Source: Sporosarcina oncorhynchi (GTDB taxonomy: Bacteria; Bacillota; Bacilli; Bacillales_A; Planococcaceae). From it: a DNA stretch of 64,000 nucleotides. Location of the stretch: the NCBI RefSeq assembly GCF_033304615.1, contig NZ_CP129118.1:988001-1052000 (forward strand), written 5' to 3'. A program made the translations under genes and the position numbers. Position 1 is the stretch's first letter, and every line of letters begins with the position of its first letter. Below are positions 23,878-63,468 of this stretch, one piece after another. Below the pieces are notes generated by a model. That model saw nothing but the letters and a program-made list of their open reading frames with translations, did no database searches and was not told the DNA's origin.

Positions 23878-25438
<1,561 letters not shown>

Positions 25439-42353: not shown

Positions 42354-42605
42354 ATGAACGACTCTTTTTTTAAAAAAATAGAATCCAAGACCGGCGTTCC
42401 CATGGAAGAAGTATTCGCACTCGCGAATGCAATCCAACACGCCAACTTCAACGACGAACGTCAAGTCCGAAAAATCGTCCGTAAAGTAGGAAAACTAGCA
42501 AACAAAAACGTCCCCCAACACGTCGAAGATGACCTAGTCAACTCCATAGTCAAAAACGGAAGCTCCGTTAATATGGCCGACATCCAAAAAATGATGGGGA
42601 ACTAA
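42354..42605 (+). CDS. spoVIF: SpoVIF, stage VI sporulation protein F
   Basis: This 83-aa protein has the SpoVIF sequence pattern (FFKKIESKTGVPMEEVFALANAIQHANFNDERQVRKIV ... VNMADIQKMMG). SpoVIF guides assembly of GerE-dependent coat proteins in the mother cell. SD GAGGGAGGA. The stop is followed by three structured repeats before the terminator at 42967, so the repeats probably lie in its 3' UTR. Confidence 0.93.
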   Translation: MNDSFFKKIESKTGVPMEEVFALANAIQHANFNDERQVRKIVRKVGKLANKNVPQHVEDDLVNSIVKNGSSVNMADIQKMMGN

Positions 42606-42607
42606 CG

Positions 42608-42725
42608 AAAGCGAAGAAAGGCGTCTAGCTGCGACAGGCGTTGGAAGAATTGAAATAAAGGCGCCCTTTGCCTTTACTTCAATTCTGAAACGACCCGAGC
42701 AGCTGCCTTTCGTAGCTAGATGAAC
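42608..42725 (+). repeat. Structured repeat, copy 1
   Basis: This ~118-nt unit runs AAAGCGAAGAAAGGCGTCTA to ...TTTCGTAGCTAGATGAAC. Pairings: GAAAGGC/GCCTTTC (outer), AGCTGC/GCAGCT (inner) and a central hairpin AGAATTGAA..AAAGGC/GCCTTT..TTCAATTCT. The 3' tail AGCTAGA can instead pair with TCTAGCT. Confidence 0.85.
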
Positions 42726-42846
42726 AAAAGCGAAGGGCACCGTTCAGCCTCGACAAGCGCTGGAGCACTTGAAAAAAAGACGCTTTTTGTCTTTTCTTTC
42801 AAGTGTGAAGCGACTCGAGAGGCTGGCGCCCATAGCTAGCCGGACC
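42726..42846 (+). repeat. Structured repeat, copy 2 (divergent)
   Basis: A ~121-nt unit with the same layout and changed bases: GGGC/GCCC outer, AGCCTC/GAGGCT inner and central hairpin CACTTGAAA..AAAGAC/GTCTTT..TTTCAAGTG. The stems keep pairing despite sequence change relative to copies 1 and 3. Confidence 0.85.
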
Positions 42847-42966
42847 AAAAGCGAAGAAAGGCGTCTAGCTGCGACAGGCATAAGTCGAAGTTGCGAAGTG
42901 GCGGTTTTTGCCACGTAGCAACTTTGCTTATGACCCGAGCAACTGCCTTTCGTAGCTAGACGAAAC
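42847..42966 (+). repeat. Structured repeat, copy 3
   Basis: A ~120-nt unit almost identical to copy 1 at both ends (GAAGAAAGGCGTCTAGCTGC start, CTGCCTTTCGTAGCTAGACG end) but with an unrelated central hairpin: CATAAG..GAAGTTGC..GTGGC/GCCAC..GCAACTTT..CTTATG. Confidence 0.85.
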
Positions 42967-43003
42967 AAAAGCGGCTGCATACTACTACGCAGCCGCTTTT
43001 TTT
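42967..43003 (+). terminator. Terminator of yjcZ-spoVIF-repeats
   Basis: AAAAGCGGCTGCA..TGCGTAGT loop region..GCAGCCGCTTTT with a T-run. The 43004-43210 stretch beyond it shows no gene or clear element. Confidence 0.88.
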
Positions 43004-55680: not shown

Positions 55681-55762
55681 AATCAAGATTAATTTGTCAA
55701 AAGCATTTAGCGCGAGTGGATGTCTGGTAGAAGCTTATACTGTCCGCGACACTTATACGACC

Positions 55763-56095
55763 TATGTGCAAAACCGCTCAAGTTAGTAGGAAATCCGCTC
55801 AACCTATGTGGAAAACCGCTCAAGTTAGTAGGAAATCCGCTCAACCTGTGTGCAGAACCGCTCAAGTTAAGGTAAATCCGCTCAACCTATGTGAAAAACC
55901 GCTCAAGTTAGTAGGAAATCCGCTCAACCTATGCGCAAAACCGCTCAAGTTAAGGGAAATCCGCTCAACCTGTGTGGAAAACCGCTCAAGTTAAGGGAAA
56001 TCCGCTCAACCTATGTGCAAAACCGCTCAAGTTAGTAGGAAATCCGCTCAACCTATGTGCAAAACCGCTCAAGTTGTCAGGGGAACCGCTTGACC
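55763..56095. repeat. 21-nt periodic array, CCGCTCAA core
   Basis: Fifteen exact CCGCTCAA cores (first at 55774, then 55795, 55816, 55837, 55858, 55878, 55899, 55920, 55941, 55961, 55982 and on) plus one degenerate copy at the right end, spaced 21 nt (occasionally 20). Two half-unit types alternate: ACCGCTCAAGTTAGTAGGAA and TCCGCTCAACCTATGTGCAA. It lies between convergent genes. No real coding potential. Confidence 0.92.
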
Positions 56096-63330: not shown

Positions 63331-63468
63331 TTGCCGAAAAGTGATAGAAAGTATGTAGCCACAACTGGCACTGGAATACTAGCCGATATGCTGCTGCACC
63401 ATTCGAGAAAGTTTGAAGTGACCATAGAGGCTGCTGAAGAAGATGGATATTTTATAATGATAAAGTGA
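63331..63468 (+). CDS. Doubtful 45-aa ORF, possible HPr-like remnant
   Basis: TTG 63331 opens a short frame (MPKSDRKYVATTGTGILADM...RKFEVTIEAAEEDGYF). The stretch TGILA..LLHHSRKFEVTIEA weakly resembles the HPr/Crh segment TGIHARPA...KF, but the phosphorylatable His/Arg and half the domain are missing. SD GGAG is 10 nt upstream. The rest of 63280-63600 shows nothing recognisable. Confidence 0.25.
   Translation: MPKSDRKYVATTGTGILADMLLHHSRKFEVTIEAAEEDGYFIMIK

Follow-up and report, generated by a model that had tools for sequence, protein, structure and literature searches.

Three tandem repeats behind spoVIF of Sporosarcina oncorhynchi belong to an apparently unnamed family of folded DNA repeats in relatives of Bacillus

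Three tandem repeats that follow the spoVIF gene of Sporosarcina oncorhynchi are members of a large and apparently unnamed family of folded DNA repeats, each about 120 bases long, in many relatives of Bacillus. They were noticed in a stretch of 64,000 nucleotides, the whole of which is referred to here as the window. We think it fairly likely that the family is a small structured interspersed repeat of the Bacilli resembling REP or BOX, which is non-autonomous and sits at the 3' ends of genes. The repeat is probably mobile; its mover, and any function that it has as RNA, we infer. It is of interest that a strongly covarying structured repeat, present in 18 sampled families of Bacilli, appears to be nameless both in Rfam and in those portions of the literature that our searches reached.

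Results

Three structured repeats lie between spoVIF and its terminator

The spoVIF gene (42354..42605, + strand; 83 aa, identified from the ORF list and a match to Pfam PF14069, E 8.7e-24) ends with a TAA stop codon at 42603-42605, 2 nt 5' of the first repeat. Copy 1 (42608..42720, + strand, 113 nt) has a type I core, GCGTTGGAA..TGAAACGACCCGAG, and matches the covariance model described below with 124.3 bits (E 7e-29 in its own genome); the arms of its stem A (42616-42622 with 42705-42711, + strand) and stem B (42627-42632 with 42699-42704, + strand) were located by reading the sequence. A spacer (42721..42726, + strand, taken from the sequence) leads to copy 2 (42727..42840, + strand, 114 nt, type I core; 111.5 bits and alignments), and a second spacer (42841..42847, + strand, likewise from the sequence) to copy 3 (42848..42960, + strand, 113 nt), which has the type II core GGCATAAG..CTTATGACCCGAG and was placed by a model match of 115 bits and by alignments. 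All three copies were among the sequences from which the model was built, and the names type I, type II, stem A and stem B were coined in the present analysis. Copy 3 is followed by a tail, CGAAACAAAAGCGG, that is like the start of a further unit and runs directly into the spoVIF terminator hairpin at about 42967-43000, the terminator as a whole lying at about 42967-43003 (tail and terminator together, 42961..43003, + strand). A possible decayed copy with a type I-like core, GGCACTGGA..GAAGTGACC, lies at 63338..63447 (+ strand), where the model match is weak (29.6 bits, E 0.001 in the genome).

The first-pass annotation had described three tandem structured copies between the spoVIF stop codon and the terminator. 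They are indeed present, all on the same strand with start-to-start spacings of 119 and 121 nt, and they fold far beyond dinucleotide shuffles, with z of -6.8, -4.9 and -5.7 for copies 1, 2 and 3 on the + strand and -7.8, -6.2 and -6.2 on the other strand. Their place between stop codon and terminator supports the proposal that the tract is transcribed with spoVIF. Stems A and B of copy 2 are unlike those of the other copies, and copy 2 also carries the double change GACAAGC/GACTCGA. The replacement of AGCTGC/GCAGCT in stem B by AGCCTC/GAGGCT is as had been claimed; the change in stem A, from GAAAGGC/GCCTTTC to GGGCACC/GGCGCCC, is real too, with a single A.C pair left mismatched. Stem B of copy 3 also contains one mismatch.

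The repeat family is widespread in the Bacilli

The covariance model, of 36 base pairs, was made from own-genome copies, 24 of the 34 distinct copies having been aligned with MAFFT, and genomes were then searched with it as had been suggested. The S. oncorhynchi genome (3.48 Mb) has 59 copies at E <= 0.1, the weakest of which are partial or decayed, and simple text matching assigned 33 to type I and 25 to type II, with 1 unassigned. Joining copies at gaps under 200 nt gave 26 clusters, of which 11 are single copies, 6 are pairs, 6 are triples, one has 4 copies and two have 7. Of the 33 steps from one start to the next, 28 measure 119-124 nt. In wider searches the model matched 36 of the 37 genomes searched in the genus, S. 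oncorhynchi among them, and 1 of 24 genomes from outside it (E <= 0.001), 146 of 200 genomes and 16 of 19 genera of the family, and 62 of 398 genomes, 34 of 145 genera and 18 families of the class (both at E <= 1e-4). A draw across the phylum gave matches in 5 of 398 genomes at E <= 1e-6, and all 5 belong to the same class. We call this class Bacilli on the basis of the named hosts among the matches listed, which, for a pattern requiring the type II core, include Sporosarcina, Planococcus/Planomicrobium, Jeotgalibacillus, Mesobacillus, Neobacillus, Bhargavaea, Peribacillus and Litchfieldia. The tract is thus not unique, and covariation is strong genome-wide, so that neither of the outcomes named beforehand as refuting was seen; for such a genome-wide covarying family, mobile miniature element and 3' UTR element, the two names originally offered, are both reasonable.

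No Rfam family passes its gathering score on the copies, in keeping with the earlier statement that no named family was known. The sole gathering-level match in the window was a T-box leader elsewhere (25090-25317, - strand; RF00230, 118 bits), and an E-value search gave 18 matches that were all under their own gathering scores, led by STnc50 at the terminator (E 0.0007) and by trpB, which spans copy 3 as well as the terminator (E 0.007). Searches by topic and by sequence strings of open-licence PMC papers, within the text that these searches returned, gave no description that we recognised as this repeat family; the six papers in which a sequence string occurred were, by title, on unrelated subjects. 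A blastn search (E 1e-3) of 72,556 plasmid and 50,697 phage records with the window copies gave no match, nor did IMG/VR contain the exact type II pattern. The repeat resembles a MITE in being interspersed, under about 300 bp and, as judged from ORF lists, apparently non-coding; MITEs share terminal inverted repeats with an autonomous element, and at the ends of the present repeat pairing is limited to AGC/GCT and a variable stem. Of 120 clusters, 1 falls within a called ORF, ORFs under 900 nt that overlap an element having been left out of this count.

Variable stems carry fixed unpaired motifs

Each unit consists of an imperfect palindrome of ~113 nt and a spacer of 5-9 nt, ~120 bp in all, and is predicted to form one long hairpin. 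Outermost are an A-rich foot, AAAGCGGA, the three pairs AGC/GCT and a GGA/GNA internal loop. These are followed by stem A (7 pairs, very variable), a one-sided bulge of 4-5 nt (CGTTT-like) in the 5' arm, then stem B with its 6 variable pairs, a GACA/CGA loop, GG/CC and an extra-helical A. The core that comes next is either GCGYTGGAG..TGAARCGA (type I) or GCATAAG..CTTATGA (type II), and inside it are a long hairpin of variable sequence, the pairs GGC/GCC and, at the tip, GCYYTTT. The unpaired motifs that stay fixed are the GGA/GNA foot loop, the CGTTT-like bulge, the GACA/CGA loop, the extra-helical A and the GCYYTTT tip. A kink-turn was considered for the GACA/CGA loop and dropped, there being no 3-nt bulge.

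Among the 24 own-genome copies, double-sided changes were found in 29 of the 36 pairs, with 212 double-sided cells compared with 65.3 +/- 7.0 in shuffles; 93.3% of pair cells are paired, and pairing falls to 29-42% when the partners are slid by 1-3 columns. Columns 28, 29, 31, 97 and 100-102 of the own-genome alignment, all outside the modelled stems, are invariant in 24 of 24 rows. Four alignments were used: A2 is the own-genome MAFFT alignment, A3 and A4 were fitted to the covariance model, and A5 is an independent MAFFT alignment of 75 copies, comprising window copy 1 and 74 of 79 listed copies, mostly from other species and genera. In the last of these, stem B is 95.8% paired (67% when shuffled) and stem A is 90% and 99% paired in its two length classes (62-69% when shuffled). 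The conservation of GACAGGCATAAG and CTTATGACCCGAG in A3 and A5 is partly imposed by the search pattern for the type II core. It had also been proposed that the 3' tail can pair with the 5' arm in an alternative fold; this pairing does exist in copies 1 and 3, and is the predicted optimum fold of copy 3, but it is not conserved across the 75 copies (65.8% paired, compared with 66.0% in shuffles) and was rejected as a conserved structure.

Wobble pairs are rare: in the 75 copies, stems A and B together contain 22 G.T/T.G and 11 A.C/C.A cells; outside the long hairpin, the model-fitted alignments A3 and A4 have 94 G.T/T.G and 52 A.C/C.A. The sense strand has the more stable predicted fold in 144 of 187 copies. 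We nevertheless dropped folding energy as a guide to the RNA strand, since the difference between the strands was -3.02 kcal/mol in the real copies and -2.95 kcal/mol in shuffles, and base composition may lie behind the wobble bias as well.

Covariation alone is no proof of RNA function. According to the excerpted text of PMC8794818, the two arms of a DNA inverted repeat can be brought back into agreement by template switching, which rewrites one after the other's sequence, and such correction could produce paired-arm changes with few wobble pairs. The original phrase for the pattern, selection on structure and not sequence, is therefore too strong and correct only in part: a number of bases outside the pairs never change although the stems do, and template switching can also change arms. 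The fixed unpaired motifs are unexplained by template switching and point to something that reads the folded unit. With its varying stems and fixed loops, the repeat is a good test case for distinguishing selection on structure from template-switch mutation.

Further structures were seen with some copies. A second, nested hairpin module, GCAGTC..CCGCGTCCTGCGG..GACTGC-ATGA-CCGGCATCCTGCCGG, lies inside or beside certain units (L006:748-820, L298, L129, L318), as in BOX; an exact pattern for one form of it had 0 matches in the S. oncorhynchi genome. By eye, a similar AT-rich palindromic stretch (about CARTTATCAAAGTTNAAAATTTTATACTTT) is found 3' of several Neobacillus- or Bacillus-like copies (L162, L154, L141, L172, L178), and may represent an additional part of the element there.

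The 5' end of the element abuts gene 3' ends

Gene boundaries for the counts that follow came from simple ORF calling. From 281 clusters we kept 209, dropping duplicates and those with under 260 nt of flank and adjusting ends by motif; orthologous sites of different species are counted separately in this set. A stop codon in the sense orientation lies 0-7 nt from the element 5' end in 71 of the 209 clusters, the mirror case being found in 4, and within -15..15 nt of the 5' end in 87, with 9 mirror cases. In the set of 120 clusters, a sense stop falls within -15..15 nt of the 5' end in 46, and the stop of an antisense gene at the 3' end in 5. This polarity of the element 5' end towards gene 3' ends is a new result, and is a strong tendency and no law. 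It calls for a mover or a function that is open to direct testing in harmless laboratory strains of Bacillus.

Stop codons are only part of the rule. In three rrn operons of S. oncorhynchi a copy starts 7 nt 3' of the 23S rRNA end, before 5S; because of these copies, the rule of placement is 'behind a gene', and effects on ribosomes cannot explain it, as there is no stop codon at these sites. S. thermotolerans (L104) has no copy behind 23S. Of the 102 clusters for which both neighbours were called, 62 are sense to the 5'-side gene and 40 antisense, so that a role in sense mRNA cannot be general. The 5' flank is A-rich, with A at -1 in 103, at -3 in 77 and at -4 in 72 of 120 clusters. On the other strand the AAA foot and this flank read as a U-rich tract, with a CCGCTTTTCTTA-like end that resembles a terminator; the figure obtained for the tract, 6.0 T in 9 nt, includes three T assigned beforehand for the AAA foot of the element, so that the measured part is about 3.0 of the 6 flanking bases.

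Neighbours that were confirmed are spoVIF, ACP, HU, FtsW/RodA, 23S and 5S, and there are others that we take, from reading the DNA, to be groEL, sigA, glpX, rpmH/rnpA and fabG. Among the sites of the element are rRNA operons and the ends of genes as central as those for ACP, HU, FtsW/RodA and spoVIF, and it should therefore matter for transcript ends, annotation and typing.

Copies come and go at orthologous sites

At the same sites, both presence and copy number vary between species. An element lies behind the spoVIF stop codon in 5 of 30 loci of the genus (from 68 genomes), with 3 copies in S. oncorhynchi, 2 in its closest relative and 1 in each of three others, one of which has a nested insert; one relative has a bare terminator and is a clean empty site. 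A regulatory role specific to spoVIF is unlikely because so few of these loci carry the element. Behind the FtsW/RodA gene (Pfam PF01098) there is a 7-unit array that is absent at the same site in Sporosarcina quadrami, and the site is also empty in a record titled Arthrobacter beigongshangensis. The gene at the filled site ends in TGA at the element edge, and its protein is one residue longer than that of S. quadrami and one residue shorter than that of the Arthrobacter-titled record. Records bearing this title (L133, L178) themselves carry the element, and L133 has a region that is 79-81% identical to the S. oncorhynchi genome; therefore the title or the assembly is probably wrong.

Upstream of acpP, 17 of 30 loci (from 68 genomes) have 1-6 matches, all antisense, one locus having partial matches only, and the element 5' end lies 16-33 nt before the matched coding start. 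Six species share this place and differ in stems and even in core type, and the acpP copies are no less compatible with a site that was fixed long ago than with fresh insertion. Upstream of hup, sense units occupy one place in 6 of 30 loci (again from 68 genomes); a seventh locus has an antisense partial match further upstream, and two more have apparent remnants.

A unit stands alone or in a head-to-tail array of as many as 7. In 72 clusters, which are arrays or have a trailing partial copy, the last bases of the 5' flank are seen again ahead of the following unit, whether whole or partial: the shared suffix averages 3.07 nt, compared with 1.55 nt when permuted (0 of 2000 permutations). At cluster ends the excess of shared bases is weak, 3.72 compared with 3.27 for clusters without a partial unit (n=69) and 3.83 compared with 3.31 for those with one (n=48), local composition being uncontrolled in both comparisons. 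Tandem duplication alone can also repeat flank bases, and no lone, fresh insertion was seen with a clean target-site duplication on its two sides.

In L296, L297, L300 and L101, a terminator beside the element (alone in L300) shares the stem A sequence, as if element remnants had turned into terminators, or the reverse. Copying of stem A from the local terminator was rejected as a rule, as the resemblance occurs only at spoVIF in two relatives and in L101 and is absent at the other terminators read; growth of the terminator from an element remnant is as likely as copying of stem A from the terminator.

A RAYT or Y1 transposase was rejected as a present partner at the loci tested

The partner search was made with PF01797. 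No element adjoins the one Y1 transposase gene of S. oncorhynchi. The 21 RAYT-type loci (own and 20 chosen, each 5.6-7 kb long) contained 0 elements, and of 31 Y1 loci of about 3.3 kb, own gene included, 1 had two elements. PF01797 had no match at E 1e-5 in 8 genomes of the same genus that have elements. Given the missing flanking copies and the missing PF01797, a RAYT/Y1 transposase was rejected as the present mover for the tested loci, and this partner search found no mover for the repeat.

Discussion

The repeat is like the REP, BIME and REPIN sequences of Gammaproteobacteria in being chromosomal, intergenic, present in tens of copies, hairpin-forming and of one strand polarity. It differs in its palindrome, which is 113 nt as against 20-40 nt in the excerpted description of REP (PMC3733652), in its head-to-tail arrays, where BIMEs are given alternating orientations in the excerpt of PMC2817692, and in its foot, which in the alignments read is AAAGCGGA..GNAGC and not an unpaired GTAG or CGTC tag. 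RAYT genes are flanked by REP copies, whereas the RAYT-type loci tested here lack flanking copies of the repeat. BOX is marked by boxA-boxB-boxC modules and SPRITE by an 18-bp duplex with a U tract. The BOX, RUP and SPRITE elements of Streptococcus pneumoniae, as the available text of PMC3049150 describes them, are alike in small size, secondary structure, repeated modules, clusters, nested insertions and a place near gene 3' ends; SPRITE, with AAAA/TTTT ends, is there called terminator-like and proposed to supply co-opted terminators near gene 3' ends. By these descriptions, which set the repeats apart, they are confined for the most part to pneumococcus and S. mitis, with S. suis added in the case of BOX, whereas ours occurs in 18 sampled families; it also shows, unlike them as described, covariation in all six helices (own genome). 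From Bacillaceae, the excerpts of PMC2267715 report two further intergenic repeats that form stem-loops, bcr1 of the Bacillus cereus group (147-167 bp) and Bhal-1 of B. halodurans (74 nt, 36 copies), which we compared with ours by description alone; Bhal-1 may be a relative. We liken the repeat to REP and BOX without counting it as a member of either, given the outcome at the RAYT loci examined and its different tag and size.

The reading that we favour, that of a non-autonomous interspersed repeat similar to REP and BOX, would work as follows. The repeat would spread rarely, its folded hairpin being recognised by some protein, would then multiply in place by tandem duplication, and would be tolerated best directly behind genes. 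A co-transcribed unit would form a strong hairpin 0-7 nt behind the stop codon, and such a hairpin should be a barrier to 3' exonucleases and may hold back ribosomes at termination, in the way reported for E. coli REPs. According to the excerpt of PMC12306157, which cites earlier work, some E. coli REPs lie no more than 15 nt from a stop codon, and REPs at this distance lower translation. The timing of insertions, like the mover and any effect at the level of RNA, is something that we infer.

A different account is that the repeat is a cis-acting RNA useful to the host, a structured 3' UTR element (a 5' leader at hup) kept by selection at the RNA level, which we regard as unlikely. Strong covariation, conserved GA-rich internal loops, the polarity to stop codons, the fixed place and orientation upstream of acpP (17/30) and hup (6/30) and the excess of G.T/T.G over A.C/C.A pairs (94 to 52, and 22 to 11) can all be read in its favour. 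However, presence per gene is patchy (5/30 at spoVIF), many copies are antisense, G.U pairs are rare and arrays range from 1 to 7 units, while the stability of the sense strand is fully accounted for by composition, as perhaps is the wobble bias too.

We give rather less credence to a class-wide hairpin mobile system, in which a recombinase or HUH-type enzyme would read the conserved bulged bases and insert units site-specifically and one-way at an A-rich core directly behind genes (at stop codons and the 23S 3' end), building head-to-tail arrays. The enzyme of such a system would probably be chromosomally encoded. If this were true, the Bacilli would have a hairpin mobile DNA system with no known transposase, and the unit would also be transcript punctuation on both strands.

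Integron attC sites, whose core sites are bound by a cognate integrase, are imperfect palindromes too; they combine stems of variable sequence with conserved bases outside the helix, and they have strand polarity. The repeat shares the variable stems, the extra-helical bases and the polarity, but is without gene cassettes, and no core-site motif was seen by eye. It is doubtful, and in our view improbable, that the repeat is a folded single-stranded DNA recombination site, like attC or an IS200 end, at which a recombinase would read the bulged bases and join units of ~120 bp at an A-rich core such as TAAG^AAAAGC beside gene ends. Invariant unpaired bases on variable stems, rare wobble and strict polarity fit this idea, as do the recurrence of 5' flank bases in spacers, the fact that 48 of 117 clusters are followed within 24 nt by what looks like the AAAGCG-like beginning of another unit and, by eye, several arrays that join a terminator itself beginning with AAAAGC; yet there is no linked recombinase, no attC core motifs were recognised by eye, and repeated flanks and partial end units also follow from tandem duplication alone.

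Least probable is a mostly passive palindrome, an old repeat without function and now immobile that was kept perfect by template-switch correction (a mechanism described in the excerpt of PMC8794818) and multiplied by slippage, since, for all that whole-arm changes with few wobble intermediates, the frequent sharing of stems at one locus and decayed and partial copies agree with it, neither the conserved loops and bulge in a model that matches 18 families nor the sharp polarity to gene ends would be expected.

The window also contains a repeat of another kind, a tandem array of the 42-nt unit ACCTATGTGCAAAACCGCTCAAGTTAGTAGGAAATCCGCTCA at 55760-56075, and CCGCTCAAC repeats similar to this array also flank an element cluster in L009.
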